Source: Acidobacteriota bacterium
GTDB taxonomy: Bacteria > Acidobacteriota > Terriglobia > Terriglobales > Acidobacteriaceae
Assembly: GCA_018268755.1 (NCBI GenBank)
Contig: JAFDVW010000014.1
Span: 62,001 to 126,000 of the forward strand
Length of the DNA stretch: 64,000 nucleotides
Direction of reading: 5' to 3'
Shown here: piece after piece, positions 10,861 through 61,511 of the stretch
Layout: each line of letters starts with the position of its first letter
Position numbering within the stretch: position 1 is the stretch's first letter
Program-made: the position numbers and the translations under genes
Notes under the pieces: generated by a model
Database searches by the model: none
Told to the model about the DNA's origin: nothing
Seen by the model: only the letters and a program-made list of their open reading frames with translations

Positions 10861-10932
10861 CAGCACTTAGCAGTTTAGCGCTTAGTCAAACCGCGAAGTG
10901 CTGATTGCTAATTGCCAACTGCTAATTGCTAT
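10861..10932 (+). repeat. Short-word intergenic repeat (TTAGC/GCTAATTGC words)
   Basis: The DNA between the small membrane gene and the receiver gene is built from recurring words: TTAGC, GCTAATTGC and GCTGATTGC. It resembles the word-repeat inserted in mnmG (21391-21470) and the one after the tRNA (36651-36728). It runs into the 3' end of the receiver gene. Confidence 0.5.
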
Positions 10933-12791
10933 TTCTTCTTCTTTTTCTTCTTGTCGCTTTCCAGCTTCTTGGCGATTTCTTCCACCAGCTTGGGTTTCAG
11001 CTCCGCTAGCACGCTGTCCACGATGCTGGCGATGGCCACGCCCGATTCCTGCGCGGAATCGTCGGCCGCTTCCGCTGCCTCTTCGGCCGCGGAACTCGTG
11101 ATCTCCACTTGGGCGGCCGCGGCGAGCTGGGAAGTGAACTGGTCGCCGACCATGGTCTCGCGAATATTCTTCCAGTGTTTCCAGGCGGCGGCGAGTTCGG
11201 CTTCGCGTAGCTTTTCCGCCACTTTCTCTTCTTCCGGCGCGGCCACGCGGGAGACTTCCGCGGGAACCTCGCTGGCGGTAGAACCTCCGGCAGCGGCCAC
11301 GGCATACGCGGCTTGCGGCTCGCTGGGCACCTCGGCTGCGGCGGCCACCATATCGTTCGGCGGATTCTCTACAGGCTCCGTCTGGGGCGCAGGCGTTTCG
11401 GAAACGGCTGCCGCGTCCGCGGCCGGCGCGGCAGGCGGTTCTCCAGCCGCCGCTGCCACCGGCGCCGTCATCTCTGGCGCGGGCGGAACTTCTGCGGGGC
11501 CAGCGTCGAGCTGGGCGGCAGCGGCTTCCGCCGCCACCATGGCGGCATAGGCCTTTTCCATCTCCTGCTCGAGGACCATCAAAGCCTCATCGTTGTGCAG
11601 CGGAACCGATTCGGCAATCCAGCGTGGCCCGGTGGCGCGCGGAATCTCCGGAGCGCCGGCAGCCGCGACCCCCGCCAGAGCCGGGGCTTCGACGTGCGCG
11701 GGACTCACGGCGTCGATAGCAGGCGCGAGGCTGGCCAGGGCGGCGTCGACTTCTGCATCCAGCGGTTTTTCGGGGACCTCGGCCGGCTGTGCCTCTGCCA
11801 CGGGCGCGGATGCTTCGGCGCTGGCGGCAGATTGGGCAGAAACCTCGACGGCGGACGGCGCGATCTCAACGGGCGCAATCGCTTTCGTGGTCTGGGAAAT
11901 TTCTGTTGGCGCTGCAGTTTCCGCAGCAGCCACCGGCGTGGCTTCACTGACCGGCGCGGCCGCCACTGCGGGCGCTTGCTCTTCGGCCGGGGCCGTCTTT
12001 TCGGCTGCGATCGGCGTGAGCTCGGAGGCTTGGGCTTCTACCGCCTCAACCTTCCCGGGCTCGGCAATTTTTTCTTCCGCTTTCGGTGTCTTGCTGCCCA
12101 CGGCGGAGGCCGCCGCGGCAAAGGCGGCAATTTCTTCCGGGGTAATGTCAGCGGGCAGTCCGGCCGGAACCGGCCGTTCGAAATCCTTTTTGCTGTCCTG
12201 CGGCTTGAAGTCTTCTGCCCGGTCCAGCGCGGGATGAGGCGTGGCCGCGACCACCGGCTGCGGCGCCTCCACCTCGGGCTTCGTTTCACCCGGCGTAGGC
12301 AGTTTGATGCGTTCTTTCCATCCGGTTTCAGCGTCGCCGAAAGATTCCGGCTTGTCCTCCAGCGCGGCCATCACCTTGGCGAAACGGCCCGGCTTAGCCG
12401 GCTGCTTGCTGGCCTGCGGCACAATGCGGTCTTCCAGCTTGGTGAGTGCGGTCAGCAGTTCGCTGGCTTCGAACGGTTTGACGATGAAGGCTTCGGCGCG
12501 CACGCGACGCGCATCCTCCGGCTTAAAGGGCTCCAGCTTGCCCACGGTCAGCAGCACGGGAATGCGGGCCGTGTCGTTGTTTTCCTTCAGGCGCTGGCAA
12601 ACTTCCAGGCCCCCGTAGCCTGGCATATAGATATCCAGGATGATCAGGTCGGGCTTATGTTCCGCGATCTTCTTCAGGGCCGCCGAGCCATTGTTGACCG
12701 TCACCACGTCATAGCCGGCATCACTAAGAATGCGCCGGCCCATGTTCTGGGCTGTCACGCTGTCGTCGGCAAGCAGTATTTTCCGCGCCAA
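10929..12791 (-). CDS. Receiver-domain protein with long Ala/Pro/Glu-rich tail
   Basis: I choose the TTG at 12791, because AGAGG lies 7 nt upstream and the protein then opens at ARKILLADDSVTAQN, the beginning of the receiver fold. An ATG at 12887 would add 32 unconserved residues. That gives 620 residues. The receiver (about 1-125) has the acidic pair DD, the phospho-acceptor in LIILDIYMP and the lysine in FIVKPF. The rest, about 480 residues, is low-complexity and largely Ala, Pro and Glu. A short predicted helical region (AIASIVDSVLAELKPKLVEE) and a run of seven Lys close it. No output domain is present. It is similar in layout to single-receiver proteins such as FrzS/PilG types. Which kinase acts on it is unknown. 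Confidence 0.85.
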   Translation of the reverse strand: MARKILLADDSVTAQNMGRRILSDAGYDVVTVNNGSAALKKIAEHKPDLIILDIYMPGYGGLEVCQRLKENNDTARIPVLLTVGKLEPFKPEDARRVRAEAFIVKPFEASELLTALTKLEDRIVPQASKQPAKPGRFAKVMAALEDKPESFGDAETGWKERIKLPTPGETKPEVEAPQPVVAATPHPALDRAEDFKPQDSKKDFERPVPAGLPADITPEEIAAFAAAASAVGSKTPKAEEKIAEPGKVEAVEAQASELTPIAAEKTAPAEEQAPAVAAAPVSEATPVAAAETAAPTEISQTTKAIAPVEIAPSAVEVSAQSAASAEASAPVAEAQPAEVPEKPLDAEVDAALASLAPAIDAVSPAHVEAPALAGVAAAGAPEIPRATGPRWIAESVPLHNDEALMVLEQEMEKAYAAMVAAEAAAAQLDAGPAEVPPAPEMTAPVAAAAGEPPAAPAADAAAVSETPAPQTEPVENPPNDMVAAAAEVPSEPQAAYAVAAAGGSTASEVPAEVSRVAAPEEEKVAEKLREAELAAAWKHWKNIRETMVGDQFTSQLAAAAQVEITSSAAEEAAEAADDSAQESGVAIASIVDSVLAELKPKLVEEIAKKLESDKKKKKKK

Positions 12792-12940
12792 GGGATTTTC
12801 CTCTGGGTGGGGGAATAGCGCGAAGTTAACTTGTCCGGAGCGGTAAGTCAATGATTTGGGGACAGTAACCACGTTACCAGCGTTCAATGCCGTTAGGGCG
12901 AAGAGGGAAAAATGGCCCTTAGAGAACGGCGGCCTAGAGT

Positions 12941-40935: not shown

Positions 40936-41640
40936 ATGCCGGCCGAAACGTGGGCAATTCCCTTACCGGTTGGCGAGAGTTCGCCGAGCAAGCAGCGCAG
41001 CGAACGCAACAGCGCAAACCCGGACCCCACATGGCGGGGCCACATGGCTGGGCAAGGTCTAGGCCGCATCGACGATACTCTGCTGGTGCGTGAGGCCCAA
41101 CGCGGCAACCGCGCGGCCTTCGAGGAACTGGTGCGTCACTACGACCAGGCAGTGCTGCGCCTGGCCATGCACCTGACCGGGTCGGATACCGAAGCGCAGG
41201 ACATCTATCAGGAAGCATTCCTGAAGGCCTATCGCAACATTGCCAGCTTCCGCTTCGAATGCTCCTTCTACACGTGGATTTACCGCATTGTCACCAATCT
41301 GTGTCTGGACCACCTGCGCAAGAAACAGGTGCGCAAGGAAGACGCGCCGGTGGCCACCGATGCGGAAGGCGAAGTTTACGATCTGCTGAGCCAGGTGCCG
41401 GACGTGCGCGCCGGGGCGAACCCGGAACGCGACCTGATGCGGCGGGAGATGGGCAATCGTATCGCCCGCGCGCTGGCCAAGCTTTCTCCCCGCGAGCGCA
41501 TGGTATTTGAGCTCAAGCACTATCACGGGTTGAAGCTGCGCACGGTGGGTGAGATTTTGCATACGACGGAAGACACTGCCAAGAACACGTTGTTTCGCGC
41601 CACGCAAAAACTGCGCGGCGCGTTGGCCGATATGCGGTGA
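40936..41640 (+). CDS. ECF-type RNA polymerase sigma factor
   Basis: A 234-residue sigma-70-family factor. Region 2 contains FEELVRHYDQAVLRLAMHLTG, AQDIYQEAFLKAY and SFYTWIYRIVTNLCLDHLR. Region 4 has LSPRERMVFELKHYHGLKLRTVGEIL. The start ATG 40936 has AGAGGA upstream, while an internal ATG at 41044 would drop the first 36 residues. The anti-sigma gene follows 12 bp later, so the pair are co-transcribed. It has ~60% visual identity to the sigma factor on the other strand at 45084-45749. It probably drives expression of the block 41.6-45 kb. Confidence 0.93.
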   Translation: MPAETWAIPLPVGESSPSKQRSERNSANPDPTWRGHMAGQGLGRIDDTLLVREAQRGNRAAFEELVRHYDQAVLRLAMHLTGSDTEAQDIYQEAFLKAYRNIASFRFECSFYTWIYRIVTNLCLDHLRKKQVRKEDAPVATDAEGEVYDLLSQVPDVRAGANPERDLMRREMGNRIARALAKLSPRERMVFELKHYHGLKLRTVGEILHTTEDTAKNTLFRATQKLRGALADMR

Positions 41641-41652
41641 AGGTTGAATGCG

Positions 41653-42576
41653 ATGAAATGCGAATGGGTCAAAGAAAATATTCTGCTCCACCTCTATAAC
41701 GAGCTGGAAGACGATGCCCGTTATGAGCTGGAGCAACATCTGGCGCGCTGCGCCGAGTGCGCTCTGGAACTGAAGGCGGCGCGCAAGCTGCACAGCACGC
41801 TTTCGCAGTTTCCGGTGCAAGAGCCGTCCCCCAACTTACTGGCCGCCTCGCGCCTGAAGCTGCAGGAGGCGCTCGAAACTACCCGCCCGGGCGGTTTCTG
41901 GCGGCGCCTGACCTTCGATCCCGAGTCCTGGCTGCGGGAGATCCGCTTCGCGCCGGCCCTGGCCGCTGCCATCTTTATCGTCGGCTTTGCCGGCGGCATC
42001 GGCACCACCTATCAGCTCCTGCGCAATCAGCGTCCCATTGGACCTGCCCCTGCGCCGGCCGAAGCGTCCATCGCCGGCATCCGCTCGGTCCGCCAGGAAC
42101 CGGGCACGGACAAGGTCAACATTAAATACGACACGGTCTCGACCCAGGAGACGCAAGGCTCGATCAACGACCAGCGCATTCAGCAGTTGCTGCTCTTCGC
42201 GGCCCGCAATAACTACAATTCCGGCGTGCGCATGGATTCGGTGGACCTGCTGACCCAGACCCCCAGTGACACCAACGTGCGGGAGGCCCTGATTTACGCG
42301 CTGCGCTACGATTCCAATCCCGGCGTGCGGCTGAAGGCGCTGGAGGGCTTGGCGAGTTATGTGAAGCAGGACGTGCGCGTGCGCAATGTCTTGCTGGAAG
42401 CGCTGATGAATGATTCGAACCCCGGTGTGCGCACCCAGGCCCTGCATCTGCTGGAGCCGGTGCGCGCCGACAGCAGCGTGCGCGCCGTGCTGCAGCATCT
42501 TTCGGAAAATGACCAGAGCCAATACATTCGCACCCAGGCGCGTAATGTGCTGGCGCAGATGCCGGAGATCGACTGA
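41653..42576 (+). CDS. Zinc-finger anti-sigma factor with C-terminal HEAT repeats
   Basis: ATG 41653 gives 307 residues. The N-terminus carries the zinc-associated anti-sigma motif HLARCAECALEL (HxxxCxxC, about residues 30-38), a helix at about 100-120 (FAPALAAAIFIVGFAGGIGT) spans the membrane, and the extracytoplasmic part ends in four or five HEAT-like repeats (SGVRMDSVDLL, PGVRLKALEGL, PGVRTQALHLL). Typical anti-sigma factors lack such repeats. They could sense a protein ligand. The gene lies directly downstream of its likely partner sigma factor and 71 bp before the DUF4097 gene. Confidence 0.9.
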   Translation: MKCEWVKENILLHLYNELEDDARYELEQHLARCAECALELKAARKLHSTLSQFPVQEPSPNLLAASRLKLQEALETTRPGGFWRRLTFDPESWLREIRFAPALAAAIFIVGFAGGIGTTYQLLRNQRPIGPAPAPAEASIAGIRSVRQEPGTDKVNIKYDTVSTQETQGSINDQRIQQLLLFAARNNYNSGVRMDSVDLLTQTPSDTNVREALIYALRYDSNPGVRLKALEGLASYVKQDVRVRNVLLEALMNDSNPGVRTQALHLLEPVRADSSVRAVLQHLSENDQSQYIRTQARNVLAQMPEID

Positions 42577-42647
42577 GCCGGACAGAGACAGAACAGGCAA
42601 GGAGAACGAGAACGACGGATTGCAATTGCCACGATGAGTGAGGAAGT

Positions 42648-43835
42648 ATGGGGAAACGGTGCATAAAATTCGCTGTGGCGCTGGCGCTGCTGACTGCGCT
42701 GGCCGCGGCGCAACAGTCGCGGGTATACCGCGAGGGAGGGAACTGGGTCCAGGAAAGCACCGGCTCCCTGGCTGCGGCGCGCAACCTGCGCGTGCAGGTG
42801 GATGTGGGTTCGGTGCGGGTGGAGGGCGGGGCGGGCAGCATCAGCTACGTATTCCGCAACCGCGTGAATGAAGCTTCCGAGGAGAAGGCGCGCCGCATCC
42901 TGGATTCCTATAAGGTGAGCACCTACGTGCGCGGCGATACCGCCTGGGTGGTGGGGGAGTGGCAGGGCGGCCGGGCACACCGGTTTTCCGGGGAATTTGT
43001 CATCAACGTTCCCCGCGAGCTGGACTCCGTGGAGATTGAGACCCAGGGCGGAAATGTAACCGCGAGCAATCTGGGCGGACGAGTGGACGCGCAAAGCGGC
43101 GGTGGGGTCATTAAGGTCACCGGCGTCGGCAATTCTGTACGTGCGGAGACCCTGGGAGGGGTCATTGAGGCCTCCGACATCGGCGGCGAAGCTAGCCTGC
43201 ACACCGGGGGCGGCGGCATTAAGGTCGCGGGCGTGAAACGCAAAATTACCGCGGAGAGCGGGGGCGGCAGCATCTCGGTGACGGGATGCACCCAGGGTGC
43301 TTCGCTGGAGACCGGGGGCGGCAATATCGCCGTGGACCGCTGCTACGGTCCGCTGAGCGCGTCTACCGGGGGCGGCAGCATCGACATCGGCGACATCAGC
43401 GGGCCGGCCACCATCGAAACTGCCGGTGGCAGCATCCGCGTTTCTTCCGCCAAGAATCTGGTCAAGGTGGATACGGGTAGCGGGGCCATCGAACTGAATG
43501 GGATCTCGGCGGCGCGGGCGCAGACCGGCGGCGGCGCCATCCTGGCCAAATTTGTTGCCTTCAACCCCGAGCGGAATGATTCCCTGCTGGAGACCGCCGC
43601 CGGCGACATCACGGTTTTTCTGGCCCCCAATCTCAACCTTACGGTGCAGGCTTCGATTGAAGTGGCCAATGGCCACAATATCCGTTCCGAATTTCCCGAG
43701 TTTCGCGTGGTCAGCGAAGGCGGGCAATGGGGGCCGAAGGCCATCAGCGCCGAAGGCAACTTGAACGGTGGGGGCCCGGTTTTGAAAGTAAGGACCACGT
43801 CGGGAGACATCGTGATACGGCGGGCCAGCCAATAG
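42648..43835 (+). CDS. Exported DUF4097-type beta-helix protein
   Basis: A 395-residue protein with GAGGAAG before the ATG and a signal peptide (MGKRCIKFAVALALLTALAAAQ). Its central section contains many Gly-rich turns in parallel-beta repeat pattern (SIDIGDISGPATIETAGGSI, SGAIELNGISAARAQTGGGA), the DUF4097/DUF4098 style of adhesin-like protein. Downstream of a sigma/anti-sigma pair, it may be part of their regulon, and the exported fold suits an envelope-linked role. Confidence 0.83.
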   Translation: MGKRCIKFAVALALLTALAAAQQSRVYREGGNWVQESTGSLAAARNLRVQVDVGSVRVEGGAGSISYVFRNRVNEASEEKARRILDSYKVSTYVRGDTAWVVGEWQGGRAHRFSGEFVINVPRELDSVEIETQGGNVTASNLGGRVDAQSGGGVIKVTGVGNSVRAETLGGVIEASDIGGEASLHTGGGGIKVAGVKRKITAESGGGSISVTGCTQGASLETGGGNIAVDRCYGPLSASTGGGSIDIGDISGPATIETAGGSIRVSSAKNLVKVDTGSGAIELNGISAARAQTGGGAILAKFVAFNPERNDSLLETAAGDITVFLAPNLNLTVQASIEVANGHNIRSEFPEFRVVSEGGQWGPKAISAEGNLNGGGPVLKVRTTSGDIVIRRASQ

Positions 43836-43860
43836 GCGGCATTCGCTCAGGAGGACCACC

Positions 43861-44994
43861 ATGCGCACAGCGCTTTACGCCATCTTGCTCAGTACGGCAC
43901 TGGCCTCCGCGGCCGGGGCCGTGGATTGCGTCTCCACGGAACCGTTCGATCAATCCTTTGGCTTCTCCAGTGACGACTGGGGGGGAGGCGGGGGTTCTTA
44001 TCTCGGCGTCGACACCCGCGACATTACCGCTGACCGGCTTGGCCCCTTGCATCTGAGAGAAGAGCAGGGCGTAGAAGTAACCATGGTGGACCAGGACGCT
44101 CCCGCCGGCAAAGCCGGCCTCAAGGAGCACGACGTCATCGTGAGCATCAACGGCACCAAGGTGGAAAGTGTCGAGCAGTTACGGCGGCTCATCCGGGAAG
44201 TGCCGCCCGGCCGCGTCATCACCATCGGAGTGAGCCGCGACGGACAACCCGTCGCCTTGAAAGCACAACTCATGGACCGCAAGAAAGCCTTCGCCATGCC
44301 GGACGCCAAAACCTTCAATTTTGCGGTGCCGGCGATTCCTGCGGTGCCTGCGGTGCCGGCCATCCCTGCTATGCCTGCCTTTGCTGAGATGGAAATGCCG
44401 GCCTCCATCGTGGTGGTGCACAGCTCCGCGCGCAGTGGCTTGATGGTGGAAAACCTTACCCCGCAGTTGGGAGATTTCTTCGGCGTGCGCAATGGGCAGG
44501 GCGTGCTGGTGCGCTCGGTGGAGAAAGGCAGTCTGGCGGAGAAGTCCGGTTTCCGCGCGGGAGACGTGATTACCCGCATCAATGGGCAAACCGTGGCGGA
44601 CTCAGGGGATTTCGGCCGTGCGCTACGCGTCCGCAAAGATAACAAAGTGACGGTCAGTATTGTGCGCGATAAGAAAGAGCAGACCCTGGTCCTCACCTTG
44701 CCGGAACGCAAGCAGTCGGGCGTGTTGCAAGAGAGCCAGGACAACGAGGATCTGAATGTGGAGACGCACATCAACTTGAGCGAGCTGGAAATTAAACTCG
44801 CCCAGCTGCAGCCGAAGATAGAGCTCGTGGTGCGCCAGGCCCAGGAAGAGGCCCGCAAGGCAATGGAGAAGCAGCACCAGGAGATGGAAAAACAAAAGCG
44901 GGAAATTTACCGGCAGCGAGAAGAGATCGAAAAGCAAATTATTCGGCAGAGAAATCAATTTCATATCCAGCTTCGGCCCACCATGGATATTTAA
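43861..44994 (+). CDS. Exported protein with two PDZ domains and C-terminal coiled coil
   Basis: A 377-residue protein with AGGAGG at the ATG and a signal peptide (ALYAILLSTALASAAGAV). PDZ 1 spans about 35-135 (YLGVDTRDITAD, then APAGKAGLKEHDVIVSINGT), a PAIPAVPAVPAIPAMPAF hinge of Pro/Ala units follows, and PDZ 2 spans about 195-285 (GQGVLVRSVEKGSLAEKSGF, RAGDVITRINGQTV). The final 80 residues form a charged coiled coil (EARKAMEKQHQEMEKQKRE). No protease domain precedes the PDZs, unlike DegP. It probably binds protein C-termini at the envelope. The transcript ends at the terminator 45022-45056. Confidence 0.87.
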   Translation: MRTALYAILLSTALASAAGAVDCVSTEPFDQSFGFSSDDWGGGGGSYLGVDTRDITADRLGPLHLREEQGVEVTMVDQDAPAGKAGLKEHDVIVSINGTKVESVEQLRRLIREVPPGRVITIGVSRDGQPVALKAQLMDRKKAFAMPDAKTFNFAVPAIPAVPAVPAIPAMPAFAEMEMPASIVVVHSSARSGLMVENLTPQLGDFFGVRNGQGVLVRSVEKGSLAEKSGFRAGDVITRINGQTVADSGDFGRALRVRKDNKVTVSIVRDKKEQTLVLTLPERKQSGVLQESQDNEDLNVETHINLSELEIKLAQLQPKIELVVRQAQEEARKAMEKQHQEMEKQKREIYRQREEIEKQIIRQRNQFHIQLRPTMDI

Positions 44995-45083: not shown

Positions 45084-45749
45084 TCAGCGGGCGTCGGCCA
45101 GTTCGGCGCGCAGCTTGTGAGTAGCGCGGAACAGGGTGTTCTTAATGGTGCCCTCGGTGGTATTGAGCATGCCGGCGACGGTCCGCAGCCGCATGCCATG
45201 ATAATGCTTCAATTCAAACACCATACGCTCGCGGGGCGACAGCTTGTGCATGGCGCGCAGGATGCTCTCCCGCAATTCGCGGCCGATGAGCCGCCGCTCC
45301 GGGCTGCCGCTGGGGCTTTGGTCCGCTACCCGATCCAGCACGTTTTCCTCCTCCCCTTCGCTGGAAAGCGTAGTGGTGAGGTCGCGTCCTCGCGAACTCC
45401 GCTTGCGCAGGTGGTCCAGGCACAGGTTGGTCACAATGCGATACAGCCAGGTATAGAACGAGCACTCAAAGCGGAAGCTGCCCAGGTTCAGGTAGGCGCG
45501 CAGGAAGGCTTCCTGGTAAATGTCCTGGCCGTCTTCCGGGGAGCCGGTCAAATGCATGGCCAGGCGCAATACCGCACGGTCATACTGTCTTACCAGCTCT
45601 TCAAACGCGGTCGAGTCCCCACCCTGCGCGCGCCGGATCAGCTGGCTGTCATCCACGCGGGGCGCACGCGGCGCGGCCACGGCGGGAAGAGCGCCCAGCA
45701 CATAGTGGGGCGCGGTGGGCAGGATGCTGGTTTGCATGGCTGTACTCAT
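45084..45749 (-). CDS. ECF-type sigma factor, paralogue of the one at 40936
   Basis: A 221-residue sigma factor with the same plan as the plus-strand factor: FEELVRQYDRAVLRLAMHLTG, GQDIYQEAFLRAYLNLGSF, SFYTWLYRIVTNLCLDHLRK and LSPRERMVFELKHYHGMRLRT. The first 40 residues (MSTAMQTSILPTAPHY...) are variable. No anti-sigma factor is encoded next to it. It lies 32 bp after the OmpR regulator on the same strand, so it is probably part of the kinase-regulator transcript. Confidence 0.92.
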   Translation of the reverse strand: MSTAMQTSILPTAPHYVLGALPAVAAPRAPRVDDSQLIRRAQGGDSTAFEELVRQYDRAVLRLAMHLTGSPEDGQDIYQEAFLRAYLNLGSFRFECSFYTWLYRIVTNLCLDHLRKRSSRGRDLTTTLSSEGEEENVLDRVADQSPSGSPERRLIGRELRESILRAMHKLSPRERMVFELKHYHGMRLRTVAGMLNTTEGTIKNTLFRATHKLRAELADAR

Positions 45750-45781: not shown

Positions 45782-46462
45782 TTAGCCCACGAATTTGTAG
45801 CCGGTGCCGTGCACGGTCAAGATGAAGCGCGGCTCATCGGGCTTGGGTTCGACCTTTTGACGAAGGCGCACGATATGGGTGTCGACCGTGCGGGTGGTGG
45901 GGAAATGTTCATATCCCCAAACGTCCTCCAGCAGGCGGTCGCGGCTCAAGGTTTCTCCGGGATGCGCCAGAAAATATTTCAGCAAATCGAATTCTTTCGA
46001 GGAGAACTCCAGCGCCCGGCCCTGGCGCGAGACCTGGCAGGATCGCACATTCACCTCCACATCTCCGAAACTGTAGCGGTCCTGCTGTTTAGGCGCCGTG
46101 CCCGCCCGGCGTAGCACCGCCTTTACCCGGGCCAGCAGTTCGCGAATGGAGAAGGGCTTGGTGACGTAATCGTCGGCGCCCAGTTCGAGGCCGACAATTT
46201 TGTCCACTTCCTGCCCGCGCGCCGTCAGCATGATGATGGGCAGCGCGGGGCGCTTGGCCTTCAGCTGCTTGCAGACGTCCAAGCCGCTTAGGCGCGGCAT
46301 CATGACATCCAGAATCACCAGGTCAGGGGACTCGCGCAGGGCGCGTTCCAGGCCGGAAACGCCGTCGCCCGCGGTGATCACTTCGTATCCCTCAAACTCG
46401 AAGTTGTCGCGCAGGCCGGCGACCATGTTGGGCTCGTCTTCGACAATCAGAATTCTCGCCAT
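45782..46462 (-). CDS. OmpR/PhoB-type response regulator
   Basis: A 226-residue regulator. Receiver: acidic pair in LIVEDEPNM, phospho-Asp in LVILDVMMPRLSG and Lys in YVTKPFSIREL. The winged-helix DNA-binding domain has KEFDLLKYFLAHPGETLSR, RLLEDVWGYEHFPTTRTVD and VHGTGYKFVG. It lies 10 bp after the kinase gene and 32 bp before the second sigma gene, in one likely operon. Its targets may include the adjacent sigma factor and envelope genes. Confidence 0.93.
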   Translation of the reverse strand: MARILIVEDEPNMVAGLRDNFEFEGYEVITAGDGVSGLERALRESPDLVILDVMMPRLSGLDVCKQLKAKRPALPIIMLTARGQEVDKIVGLELGADDYVTKPFSIRELLARVKAVLRRAGTAPKQQDRYSFGDVEVNVRSCQVSRQGRALEFSSKEFDLLKYFLAHPGETLSRDRLLEDVWGYEHFPTTRTVDTHIVRLRQKVEPKPDEPRFILTVHGTGYKFVG

Positions 46463-46472
46463 ACCTTCCTCA

Positions 46473-48137
46473 CTAGGCCTGTGCCGGCTGGTTCACCGGG
46501 AGCGTAATGGTGAATTTACTGCCTTGTCCGGGAATGCTGTCCACCGAGACCTGTCCGCCATGGGCCTGCGTGATGTGCTTGACCAGCGATAGTCCCAGCC
46601 CGCTTCCCTTGGTGTTGTGTACCAGGGGGTCGCCCACACGATAAAACTTCTCGAAGATTTTAGGTTGTTCGCTGTCGGGGATGCCGATGCCATGGTCAAT
46701 CACTTCCAGTTTCACCGCCCCGTTCGAGGGATATAAATTCACCCCGATATACTTGCGGTCCTGGGAGTATTTCAGCGCATTGTTGACCAGGTTGAGCAAG
46801 GAGCGGGCAATGGCCTCGCGGTCTACGCGCAGGGACGGCACGGTGTCGATTTTTTCTTCGAAAGTGAAGCCGTGTTGCTCGATCTGGTAGCGGTAGGATT
46901 CCAGGGTATTGCGCACCAGCTCCTGCAAGTCGGTCTCGCGGAAGTCATATTCCTTGCGGCCGGCTTCGATGCGCGAGAAGTCCAGAATGTTGTTGATCAG
47001 TCCGGTCAGGCGCTCGCTCTCTTTGCGAATGATGCTGTAATACTCCTGCGCTTTCCCCGAAGAAGTGATGCGGCCCATCTCCAGGGTTTCTGCATACAGG
47101 CGGATCAGCGACAGAGGTGTGCGCAGCTCATGCGAGACGTTGGAAACGAAGTCCGATTTCAAGCGCGCCACCGCCAGCTCCTTGGTAATGGCGCGGTAGG
47201 TCAGGAAGATCCCGCCCGCCAGGAGCAGGGAAAGGCCGCCCAGCACCAGGAAGCTGATCCGCACAAAGCGCTGTCCAATGGCTTCGAGCGTGGTGCCGCG
47301 CAGCTTGATGGCCAGGGTCAGGCCGGGCAGAGCGCCATCCATATTGCGCTCCACTTCCGGCGTACCGCCATCCCATCCAGGGGAAGCGGCGAGCATGGAG
47401 CCTTCTCCGCGCAAACGCACCATGAGCACGGCTGGGTTCTTCTCGTTGTGCGACTCCGACAAGTTGCGCACCATCACGTTTTCCAGAATCTCGGGCAAGA
47501 AGCGGTCGCGGATGTATTCCGCCTCAAAGGCGACGCCGCCGATGCCGTTGGTTTTTCCGTTCTCGTCTTTGGTGAGGAACATGGCCACCGGCTCGTAGAG
47601 CAGCTTCTTGTCGCCCCGTGGCGCCCAATTCACGAAAGACATGTAATTCATGCCCTTCCGGGCCATGGCCTCCATCTTTTGCTTGTCGGAATCAAACTCC
47701 ATGCCGATCCAGCCGTTCAGCATTTTGGCGAAATCATCGGCCTCTATGCGGAAGCCCTCTTCCTGTAAACGGCGGGGCTGGGAGCGGGTGACCAGGCCAT
47801 TCTTGGGGGTGTAGAGAAAGGCGTGCGCGATATAGGGATGTGCCGCCAGGGCTTTGTCGAGCACGGCGCTGGATACGCTGCACGGCTGCTCCGCCGCGGG
47901 GAAGTCTTCGCGCATGTCGTCCGCCATCTCATAGAGCTGCTTGTTGAGGTGCTTTTCGGAGATGTAGAGGACCTGATAAAAATCGCGCTGGATGGCCGCT
48001 TCCACGTTGCGATCGCGCTGGATGCTCTTCAGGTGCAGCACGCTGACCACGATCAGCGCGGCCGCGGGCAAGACTACCGCGAGCTCCAGGGTCAACAAGA
48101 GCCGCAGTCGGTCGTTGAGCCAGCGTTTGCGTTTCAT
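46473..48137 (-). CDS. Membrane sensor histidine kinase
   Basis: A 554-residue kinase. An N-terminal helix (LLLTLELAVVLPAAALIVVSV) and a second helix at about 270-300 (FVRISFLVLGGLSLLLAGG) bracket a ~240-residue periplasmic sensor domain. The HisKA motif is SHELRTPLSLIRL (His about 334), and the ATPase has NNALKYSQDRKY, VIDHGIGIP and GSGLGLSLVKH. I see no HAMP or PAS domain, so the second membrane helix connects almost directly to the kinase core. It is upstream of and adjacent to its regulator at 46462. Confidence 0.92.
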   Translation of the reverse strand: MKRKRWLNDRLRLLLTLELAVVLPAAALIVVSVLHLKSIQRDRNVEAAIQRDFYQVLYISEKHLNKQLYEMADDMREDFPAAEQPCSVSSAVLDKALAAHPYIAHAFLYTPKNGLVTRSQPRRLQEEGFRIEADDFAKMLNGWIGMEFDSDKQKMEAMARKGMNYMSFVNWAPRGDKKLLYEPVAMFLTKDENGKTNGIGGVAFEAEYIRDRFLPEILENVMVRNLSESHNEKNPAVLMVRLRGEGSMLAASPGWDGGTPEVERNMDGALPGLTLAIKLRGTTLEAIGQRFVRISFLVLGGLSLLLAGGIFLTYRAITKELAVARLKSDFVSNVSHELRTPLSLIRLYAETLEMGRITSSGKAQEYYSIIRKESERLTGLINNILDFSRIEAGRKEYDFRETDLQELVRNTLESYRYQIEQHGFTFEEKIDTVPSLRVDREAIARSLLNLVNNALKYSQDRKYIGVNLYPSNGAVKLEVIDHGIGIPDSEQPKIFEKFYRVGDPLVHNTKGSGLGLSLVKHITQAHGGQVSVDSIPGQGSKFTITLPVNQPAQA

Positions 48138-48298: not shown

Positions 48299-49582
48299 TC
48301 AGGGGAGGCGAAAATCCACCGTGACGTAGGTCTGGGCGGCGACGGCCCGCCCATTGAGCAGGTAAGGCTGGTAACGCCACTGCCGGACGGCCTGCGCGGC
48401 GGCCTGGCCCAGCACCAGGTAGCCGTGGACCAATTTCAGGTCTTCCACTTTGCCATCGCGGCCGATCCAGGCTTGCAGAATGACGGGGCCTTGCAGCCCG
48501 GATTTCAGCGCTTGTTCGGGATAGCTGGGCTTGATCCGCTCCAGTAGCAGCTTCTCCGCCACATCTTCAGGGACCGGCACCGGCTCCAAGGCGGCCAATA
48601 ATGAAGCTGAAGCAACTTTAGCCGGGGCGCTCGCCGAGTGGGAAGCCTCCAGCGGCGAACGCAGGCTCTCCGGAATGGCTGGCGCCGAGAAGCTCTCCAT
48701 CGCGGGCAATAATTTTGGGGCGGGAGTGCTCTCCGCCAGGGTTGGCGGCGGTGCGGTCCTGGGGACTTCGGCCAGCGGATCGCGGACCGGGACGACGCGC
48801 ACCTTGGCCGCCATACGCCGGTCGGCCAGGATTTCCCGATGACTCTGCGCGACCTCGAGGGGCGCATCTTCGTCCTCGGGCGGGCGCAAAATCGCTTGCG
48901 CCTTGTGCACCGCAAGATCGTAGATCGTCACCACGGAAGCGGCCACGGCCTCACTGCGCAATGGGGCGACAAAAACATATCCCAGAGAAAACAGGGCCAC
49001 ACCCAGGGCTGCTCCGCGCAACCAGGGGCGTGGCTGAGAGGCGGCCCCTTTGCGGACAGGGGGCCGGGAGGGCGACGAGGCGCGGACCAGGGGCGGAAGA
49101 GCATCTTCCCAGGGCCCTGGGTTTACAGATTTGGAAGGGGGAGGGCCATCCAAAAGCAAAGTTTGCGGGCGGCCGCTGCGGGCGTCATCTTCCGCCAGTT
49201 GCGCGGCCAGCCAATGCTGCATACGGGCCAAAAATGCGTCGCAGGTGAGAAAGGCCCGCTTGACCTGTGCGGTCTCGAAGGGCGTCTCCAGCACCAGGTC
49301 GGCGCCGCTGTTGGCCGCCAGAACCGCATCGGGCACCAGCGCAACCCGGAAGGCACTCTCATTGGCTTTGAGTTCCCGCGAAGTCTTCAGCAAAAAGCTG
49401 GCTTCCGGGCCCTCGTTCCAATCCGCCACCACGATGTCAAAGCCATGGCTGGTCAGCCTTTCCACGGCAGCGAAGATCTCCGGGCAGAGCTCTACCTGGA
49501 TTTCCAGCTCCTGCAGAGCCTCGACCACCGGACGCGAAGTCCCCTCATCGGAGGAGAATAAGAGAGACCGCGGCAACATCAA
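48299..49582 (-). CDS. Fusion of degenerate receiver-like domain to TonB C-terminal domain
   Basis: A 427-residue protein. The first ~120 residues resemble a receiver (SLLFSSDEGTSRPVVEALQE, then GFDIVVADWNEG), but the conserved KPF becomes ETPF, so the lysine is absent. After a Pro/Ser-rich linker comes a membrane helix (RPWLRGAALGVALFSLGYV, about 195), a Pro-rich periplasmic segment and a C-terminal TonB-like domain (IKPSYPEQALKSGLQGPVIL, then VLGQAAAQAVRQWRYQPYLL). A normal TonB begins at the membrane helix. Signalling through a receiver into a TonB energy transducer is not a standard architecture. It is immediately upstream of the kinase gene on the same strand, 161 bp away. Confidence 0.8.
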   Translation of the reverse strand: MMLPRSLLFSSDEGTSRPVVEALQELEIQVELCPEIFAAVERLTSHGFDIVVADWNEGPEASFLLKTSRELKANESAFRVALVPDAVLAANSGADLVLETPFETAQVKRAFLTCDAFLARMQHWLAAQLAEDDARSGRPQTLLLDGPPPSKSVNPGPWEDALPPLVRASSPSRPPVRKGAASQPRPWLRGAALGVALFSLGYVFVAPLRSEAVAASVVTIYDLAVHKAQAILRPPEDEDAPLEVAQSHREILADRRMAAKVRVVPVRDPLAEVPRTAPPPTLAESTPAPKLLPAMESFSAPAIPESLRSPLEASHSASAPAKVASASLLAALEPVPVPEDVAEKLLLERIKPSYPEQALKSGLQGPVILQAWIGRDGKVEDLKLVHGYLVLGQAAAQAVRQWRYQPYLLNGRAVAAQTYVTVDFRLP

Positions 49583-60448: not shown

Positions 60449-60904
60449 TTATGGCCACCGTAGAGCAACTTTTCCAGATCCAGAAATGCTGGCGATGAAA
60501 GGCGGATGATATCGGCGGCAGGTTCTGACGATTGCCGGGAGTGCAGCGATCAGGATATCTGCCATCTCTGCGCCACTGTAATTTCCTGATGAAAAGTAGA
60601 ACTCACGCACACGATTTTCTATTACGGCTGATTTTTCCAACTCGTTGTAGCGAATTCTCTTATCTTTGGTAATGATTGTCCAGCCGCGTTCGCCTACAAA
60701 TGGAAGCCAAACAACATCTTCAGTGCCAGGAGGAAAATGACGACCATGGCGTTCATGCTTCACGCCAAACTGTGTCAGCGCGTCGAGAATAGGCTTGCAG
60801 TTGTGAAGATTTTCATCCAAGTACAAAACAAAATCTTCAGGCAGCTTCTGCCGTTCTCTGTTCCCACCGGATTGCTTCTTCGATTTGCCGCGGCTTGACG
60901 CCAT
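60449..60904 (-). CDS. VapC45-like PIN-domain toxin
   Basis: A 151-residue protein. The conserved block begins FVLYLDENLHNCKPILDAL. The acidic residues of the PIN-like fold occur at LYLDEN, TEDVVW and TKDKRIR. It fits the DUF5615/VapC45-type PIN group, with a Lys/Arg-rich N-terminal extension (ASSRGKSKKQSGGNRERQK) preceding the fold. RNase activity is predicted. Its start lies 68 bp inside the antitoxin gene, so the two are coupled. The pairing resembles M. tuberculosis VapBC45 (Rv2018-Rv2019). Confidence 0.8.
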   Translation of the reverse strand: MASSRGKSKKQSGGNRERQKLPEDFVLYLDENLHNCKPILDALTQFGVKHERHGRHFPPGTEDVVWLPFVGERGWTIITKDKRIRYNELEKSAVIENRVREFYFSSGNYSGAEMADILIAALPAIVRTCRRYHPPFIASISGSGKVALRWP

Positions 60905-61511
60905 ATTCAGATGCTAGGTCGTCTATGGATTCCCGGGCATTGAACCTGGAAGCGACAACTGCAGTCGAAATGCCGGTGCCAGCAATTACCGGCTTGCCAA
61001 AGCCAACGGTCGGATTAATCTGAATAAGCTTGGGCTCGTCCTGCTTTCGCTCCATCACAAATGGGTAAAACTTGAAAAGGCCTTTTGAATCACGTTCGAT
61101 ACGTTCCAGATAAAATTCCATCACCCCAGGGATGAGGATTTGTTGGTCCCTAGAGAGGTTCACGATGCGTCCGAGGTGCTCGACAAAAAGGTCTCGCCGG
61201 TCTGTCTGGAATGCCTGTTGCAATAAAGGGTGTTTATGCTTAACGTATTTGCCAAGATTGATCAGAGCCTTGCGCACGCGAGGGATTTTAACCTCGTAGA
61301 TCGCGCGCATGCTGCTGAGCATATGGCACTCCAACAGGTTAGTAAAAGAGAGCCGGGCAGGATCACGATTTGCGAGTATCACCAGAGGAGGAATAGAGCC
61401 TCCTCCTTGAACCCAATAGCGAAGCGTGTTGAGCGGAACCCGCAGATATTGAGCGGCTTCGGAGAGACCATAAATAGGCGTCTCCATTAACGCATGGATT
61501 GGCTCCTTCAT
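60837..61511 (-). CDS. DUF433/HTH antitoxin, VapB45-like
   Basis: A 224-residue protein with GAGGAGG upstream of the ATG. An N-terminal MerR-like helix-turn-helix (YGLSEAAQYLRVPLNTLRYW) gives DNA binding, and the C-terminal DUF433 domain (PTVGFGKPVIAGTGISTAVV, then DDLASEYGVKPRQIEEAIRW) is the usual toxin-neutralising part. It overlaps the toxin gene by 68 bp. The HTH suggests autoregulation. It is separated from gyrA by a terminator hairpin. Confidence 0.8.
   Translation of the reverse strand: MKEPIHALMETPIYGLSEAAQYLRVPLNTLRYWVQGGGSIPPLVILANRDPARLSFTNLLECHMLSSMRAIYEVKIPRVRKALINLGKYVKHKHPLLQQAFQTDRRDLFVEHLGRIVNLSRDQQILIPGVMEFYLERIERDSKGLFKFYPFVMERKQDEPKLIQINPTVGFGKPVIAGTGISTAVVASRFNARESIDDLASEYGVKPRQIEEAIRWEQRTAEAA

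Follow-up and report, generated by a model that had tools for sequence, protein, structure and literature searches.

What does a TonB-like protein do when a receiver-like domain stands in front of its membrane helix? As a rule, TonB proteins have no cytoplasmic domain (PMC8262864). The gene that raises this question lies in a 64,000-nucleotide stretch of DNA from a soil acidobacterium, which is called the window throughout. An earlier note on it had proposed a regulated energy transducer, serving either nutrient import or signalling to the outer membrane, and we are presenting here an analysis of its domains, its relatives and its neighbours that bears on both halves of this proposal.

Domain organisation of the fusion protein

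The open reading frame comprises 427 codons when counted from TTG 49582 (minus strand, 48299-49582). The true start is probably ATG 49579, with a product of 426 amino acids, because homologues begin at the second codon of the frame; residue numbers nevertheless follow the 427-aa frame. The gene joins a receiver domain (REC), a transmembrane helix (TM) and a TonB C-terminal domain (TonB_C), with the following features:

48299..49579, minus strand: REC-TM-TonB_C fusion gene, probable ATG start at 49579, open reading frame reaching TTG 49582
49229..49579, minus strand: degenerate receiver domain, predicted cytoplasmic, residues 2-118 (homologue alignment, profiles, AF2, Foldseek)
49547-49549, minus strand: codon of receiver residue D12
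49421-49423, minus strand: codon of phospho-acceptor D54
49283-49285, minus strand: codon of the Lys site, now Thr100
49028..49228, minus strand: predicted cytoplasmic linker, residues 119-185, mostly disordered, ~23% pairwise identity across orthologues
48962..49027, minus strand: single transmembrane helix, ~residues 186-207, without an S-x3-[H/Q/N] motor motif
48581..48961, minus strand: predicted periplasmic linker, helix at 211-232 and disordered after it, long enough to span the periplasm
48305..48580, minus strand: TonB C-terminal domain, ~residues 335-426, Pfam core 351-426

When the single protein was searched, TonB_C was its sole Pfam match (residues 351-426, E 1e-18), and the match exceeds the curated cut-off (PF03544, TIGR01352). 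Membership of this domain rests on Pfam and NCBIfam, as the receiver filled the structural match list of the full-length model, in which TonB_C had no PDB counterpart. The full-length model runs from REC through a disordered stretch, the TM helix, placed here at ~186-203, the helix at 211-232 and a disordered linker to a well-folded TonB_C. We infer an N-in topology with TonB_C in the periplasm, which would leave ~185 residues in the cytoplasm and a mostly disordered periplasmic linker of ~130 residues. The order given in the earlier note, a receiver-like domain preceding the membrane helix and the TonB C-terminal domain, is borne out.

Receiver fold and switch residues

Taken alone, the window protein gives no Response_reg match at E<=1, and the isolated domain gives 0.095. 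A profile built from the N-terminal domain and 44 relatives retrieved CheY2 (7.7e-13) and other receivers among solved structures, and Pfam Response_reg was matched individually by 43 of the 45 members of the receiver alignment (E<=1). Structure prediction of the N-terminus, suggested in the earlier note, returned a receiver: the AlphaFold2 model of residues 1-130 has the (beta-alpha)5 order with pLDDT 95.3 and pTM 0.89. Nearly all top Foldseek matches to this model are response regulators, with CheY and the pseudo-receiver of FrzS (PDB 2i6f) among them, and a structural aligner gave Z scores of 15-16, mostly over ~112-120 residues at 2.0-2.5 Å. AF2, Foldseek and the structural alignment together rule out that the N-terminus is disordered or has some other fold, and the domain is confirmed, by fold and by sequence homology, as a member of the CheY-like receiver fold family.

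The active site was counted over 20 aligned family members, 19 of which have TonB_C in the same frame, while the 20th (L049) is split over two frames. The phospho-acceptor Asp54 at the end of beta3 is present in all 20 fusions and the metal-site acid Asp12 in 18. The first acidic residue after beta1 is found in none, the residue preceding D12 being Ser, Pro, Lys, Thr, Leu or Gly, and the Thr/Ser at the end of beta4 is likewise absent from all 20. The beta5 Lys before Pro is kept in 16 fusions; it is Thr100 in the window copy, Arg in two others and Leu in one. The ETPF in place of KPF recognised in the earlier note is therefore real (Thr100), and the simple version of that finding, that Lys alone is lost, is ruled out by the loss of the beta4 Thr/Ser and of one acidic residue. 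Judging from the alignment, this is a receiver that retains a phosphorylatable Asp but has lost most of its switching apparatus: among the elements of a canonical phospho-switch the window protein has Asp54 and, of the acidic pair, Asp12, and lacks the other acid, the Thr/Ser and the Lys. Conserved receiver residues cluster round alpha3 (EGxEAxFLLK).

Occurrence and ancestry of the fusion

Some ten genera carry the fusion, and the receiver domain was detected in 27 of 61 relatives ranging from family to class level. At strict cut-offs, matches were almost confined to one acidobacterial family in a class sample of 299 genomes and lay wholly within it in a phylum sample of 396 genomes; REC-TonB_C fusions occupy part of this family. 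A scan of genome contigs yielded L039 as a true relative and, besides it, a single match to TonB_C only. Chance or an assembly artefact is ruled out, many independent genomes showing the fusion with matching order.

In the tree, a branch (98/96) separates the TonB_C-fused receivers from those family members that carry PilZ, a domain confirmed by Pfam in the ten REC-PilZ relatives checked. The tree is compatible with a single fusion event, which would have been followed by duplication into clades A and B and a few others. Clade A is the window type and has five orthologues (window, L046, L039, L047 and L048). Clade-B fusions are mostly about 550-640 aa long, sometimes tandem, with pyruvate dehydrogenase-type or uvrB-like genes, named from sequence, as neighbours. 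Tandem clade-B gene pairs near dihydrolipoamide dehydrogenase-like genes were seen at L055, L057 and L060. In L049:7136-8987 the REC-TM and TonB_C parts occupy two overlapping frames, which is either a contig frameshift or a real split.

Mean identity among the five clade-A orthologues is 54% in REC, 65% in TonB_C, 42% in TM and 23-25% in the linkers; with both end domains conserved and the linkers at 23-25%, both ends of the fusion are evidently under selection. This bears on the idea that the receiver is a functionless, decayed relic carried by an otherwise ordinary TonB-like protein. An eroded active site would be expected of a relic, and within clade A the erosion extends to replacement of Lys by Thr, Arg or Leu, but REC identity of 54-75% against ~25% in the adjoining linkers, an invariant Asp54 and the apparent retention of the fusion since before the clade A/B duplication make it highly improbable.

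Relation to energy transducers

The TM helices of TonB and TolA carry a Ser-x3-His (SHLS) motif through which these proteins contact their motors (PMC12204202). The TM helix of the fusion protein has no S-x3-H/Q (SHLS-type) motif, and eight other TonB_C proteins of the same genome have S-x3-H or S-x3-Q there, one of them directly beside ExbB and two ExbDs. Over five genomes, S-x3-[HQN] was found in the TM of 0 of 19 signalling fusions (REC, GAF or PilZ preceding TM and TonB_C) versus 25 of the 48 remaining TonB_C proteins that have a TM. The Fisher value for this contrast, 3e-5, or 3e-4 if the L128 string SNPKN before the helix is counted, is a guide only, fusion paralogues not being independent data and Q and N having been admitted into the motif after inspection of the local TonBs. 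As roughly one in two ordinary TonB_C proteins has no motif either, its absence is an imperfect marker.

No ExbB, ExbD or plug-domain (TonB-dependent) receptor is encoded within the 64-kb window. ExbB/ExbD genes occur elsewhere in the genome, where two sets adjoin ordinary TonB_C genes, and 31 plug-domain matches provide candidate outer-membrane partners. Proximity of ExbB/ExbD is a weak criterion, as TonB genes are not always adjacent to motor genes (PMC12204202). A regulated energy transducer, in which motors encoded elsewhere would be used and the receiver would toggle the action of TonB on its receptors, could draw on this dispersed gene set, and the intact TonB_C, the TM anchor and the long linker suit it. 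We nevertheless consider it unlikely: motor and receptor are both missing nearby, S-x3-H/Q is missing from the TM of every signalling fusion, and the same genome has eight motif-bearing TonB_C proteins. The regulated transducer for nutrient import put forward in the earlier note has accordingly lost ground, with the TM motif absent, ExbB/ExbD elsewhere and no TonB-dependent receptor in the window, and possible signalling to or from the outer membrane is the better half of that interpretation.

Genomic neighbourhood

Three genes on the same strand lie downstream of the fusion, in a block starting 161 bp on:

46473..48137, minus strand: sensor histidine kinase (HisKA, HATPase_c)
45782..46462, minus strand: OmpR/PhoB-type response regulator with a canonical receiver
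45084..45749, minus strand: ECF-type sigma factor, the conserved third member of the downstream block

In the kinase, apparent TM segments flank a sensor region of ~250 residues without a Pfam match. The earlier note had placed the fusion upstream of a two-component system and had proposed a search for the fusion and its neighbourhood in other genomes. This placement holds well beyond the window, as the fusion recurs, and each of the five clade-A genomes has, downstream of it and in the same orientation, an orthologous histidine kinase (67-73% identical) and an OmpR-type regulator (83-87%). The ECF sigma gene (67-76%) comes next in all four genomes where it can be seen, the L047 contig ending inside the regulator. 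A tight operon with the kinase is not established: the gap, 161 bp in the window, varies from ~0.1 to 1.7 kb across loci, so that a single transcript of fusion and kinase is not certain.

The kinase-regulator-sigma module is also found without an adjacent fusion in G026, G027, G004 and G011 (the regulator of G011 being visible solely via its antisense frame), and kinase and regulator only in G030, which indicates that the kinase does not need the fusion. In all five of these genomes a SpoIIE/PP2C phosphatase gene directly follows the regulator:

L185:3935-4825, L186:9646-10524, L187:4632-5561, L188:4893-5825 and L189:5033-5941: SpoIIE/PP2C phosphatases

No SpoIIE/PP2C gene is present at that interval in the four fusion genomes where the interval is visible. 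One clean evolutionary swap of fusion and PP2C is not established, as the kinase tree does not fix the number of changes; what remains is the exclusive pattern alone.

The conserved kinase also brings in the possibility of a phosphate sink or competitor. The kinase would phosphorylate Asp54 and thereby drain the OmpR-type regulator, with tethering or TonB_C engagement controlling access. Phosphorylation of receivers does not strictly require Thr or Lys, as is known from CheY mutants, and the loss of these residues need not prevent it; Asp54 is invariant, Asp12 is retained in 18 of the 20 fusions, and the kinase adjoins the fusion in all five clade-A loci. On the other hand, every fusion lacks the Thr and one metal-site acid, the window copy has lost the Lys as well, and clade-B fusions with the same Asp adjoin other genes, which leaves the sink rather unlikely in our opinion.

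Elsewhere in the window, positions 40936-44994 contain a block of ECF sigma, zf-HC2/HEAT anti-sigma-like, DUF4097 and double-PDZ genes that recurs near the fusion in L046 and L052; its sigma gene and that at 45084-45749 are paralogues. A 652-aa protein (10929-12887, minus strand) begins with a canonical receiver and continues into a long tail that is rich in Ala, Pro and Glu and has no Pfam match, and overlapping PIN-like and DUF433/HTH genes (60449-61511, minus strand) form a toxin-antitoxin-like arrangement.

Other signalling domains joined to TonB_C

The same genome encodes two further proteins of this general plan, both Pfam-confirmed: a PilZ-TM-TonB_C protein of 286 aa without the motor motif (L102:1389-2249; G000:C8, ~193 kb) and a GAF-TM-TonB_C protein of 505 aa (L098:1231-2748; G000:C24, ~48 kb). 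GAF- and PilZ-TM-TonB_C proteins were also found in relatives with home-made profiles. A REC-PilZ gene lies a few kb from the L098 GAF fusion, beside pilin-like genes (N-terminal GFSLVELL/GFSLIEMM).

The PilZ-TM-TonB_C protein, together with the sister receivers fused to PilZ, could point to c-di-GMP, the receiver pairing with REC-PilZ or diguanylate cyclase proteins and not with the adjacent kinase. A REC-PilZ gene (L046:9568-10296) is indeed adjacent in one orthologous locus, and a GGDEF/HD gene lies 1.8 kb away within the window. This adjacency to REC-PilZ is, however, limited to that one clade-A locus, whereas the conserved adjacency is to the kinase, and we regard a c-di-GMP-linked adaptor as quite improbable.

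A broader proposal is that the family uses non-motorised TonB-type tethers with interchangeable REC, GAF or PilZ domains to pass information between cytoplasm and outer membrane, the window protein being the one dedicated to the two-component/ECF circuit; we hold this to be conceivable, if doubtful. Were it true, the TonB fold would have a second use, as an envelope-crossing tether for signalling, and a kinase circuit would be reached directly from outer-membrane occupancy, in addition to the known FecA/FecR type of route. It is also a warning that not every TonB_C protein should be annotated as an energy transducer. The main interest lies in the signalling-domain/TonB_C proteins as a set and in the conserved link to the kinase.

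Proposed function

For the window protein we tentatively prefer, while holding it to be somewhat short of probable, an envelope-spanning inner-membrane adaptor or tether that works with the adjacent kinase, is non-motorised and is not a PMF-driven energy transducer. The basis of this reading is what was found above: the architecture, the receiver fold, the absent switch residues, the absent motor motif, a tree that fits one origin of the fusion, and the conserved neighbourhood. TonB_C would grip a partner in the outer membrane or the periplasm, probably through the strand addition used by TonB, and the disordered linker would span the periplasm. The pseudo-receiver may act as a docking module that works without the normal phospho-switch; its partner would be a signalling protein, with the histidine kinase encoded alongside as the most likely candidate and the REC-PilZ family as the alternative. 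In this way the protein could couple the state of the envelope or a receptor to the kinase-OmpR-sigma circuit, or the circuit could act on the outer membrane. Both the partners and the direction of information flow are what we infer; the conserved alpha3 residues do not point to a partner.

Comparison with known systems

Our literature search, whose coverage was incomplete and which does not demonstrate absence, gave no paper on REC, GAF or PilZ fusions to TonB_C. The nearest published analogue found is GltG (PglI, MXAN_4867) of the Agl-Glt gliding machinery of Myxococcus xanthus, a likewise bitopic protein whose single TM joins a signalling domain in the cytosol to a TonB_C in the periplasm (PMC3169522). 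Compared by description, GltG has an FHA domain where the window protein has REC and no FHA match, and its gene lies in a gliding cluster (PMC3169522). The neighbours recognised beside the fusion are a two-component system and a sigma factor. Two-hybrid contact of GltG with the motor protein AglR was reported, and proton-driven action was proposed (PMC3169522). SjdR (formerly TonB1) of Anabaena resembles TonB and has an N-terminal extension that is putatively cytosolic; the available part of its report assigns it a role outside iron uptake, in septal structure function, describes its TonB-box-binding region as incomplete and mentions no receiver domain (PMC8262864).

With the TonB and TolA energy transducers the window protein shares TonB_C, a single TM anchor and a flexible periplasmic linker, but these carry SHLS (S-x3-H) and a short cytoplasmic tail, in contrast to its motif-free helix and ~185 cytoplasmic residues. 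FrzS is a receiver that functions without the normal phospho-switch. Its pseudo-receiver (PDB 2i6f) has the CheY fold and was among the structural matches, although FrzS is a cytoplasmic motility protein without a TM-TonB_C fusion. The REC-PilZ proteins of the same family have a homologous degenerate receiver, with Asp12, Asp54 and Pro101 conserved, and differ in having PilZ as output, in lacking TonB_C and in occupying a separate branch. TonB-like proteins with a cytosolic signalling domain are thus already known.
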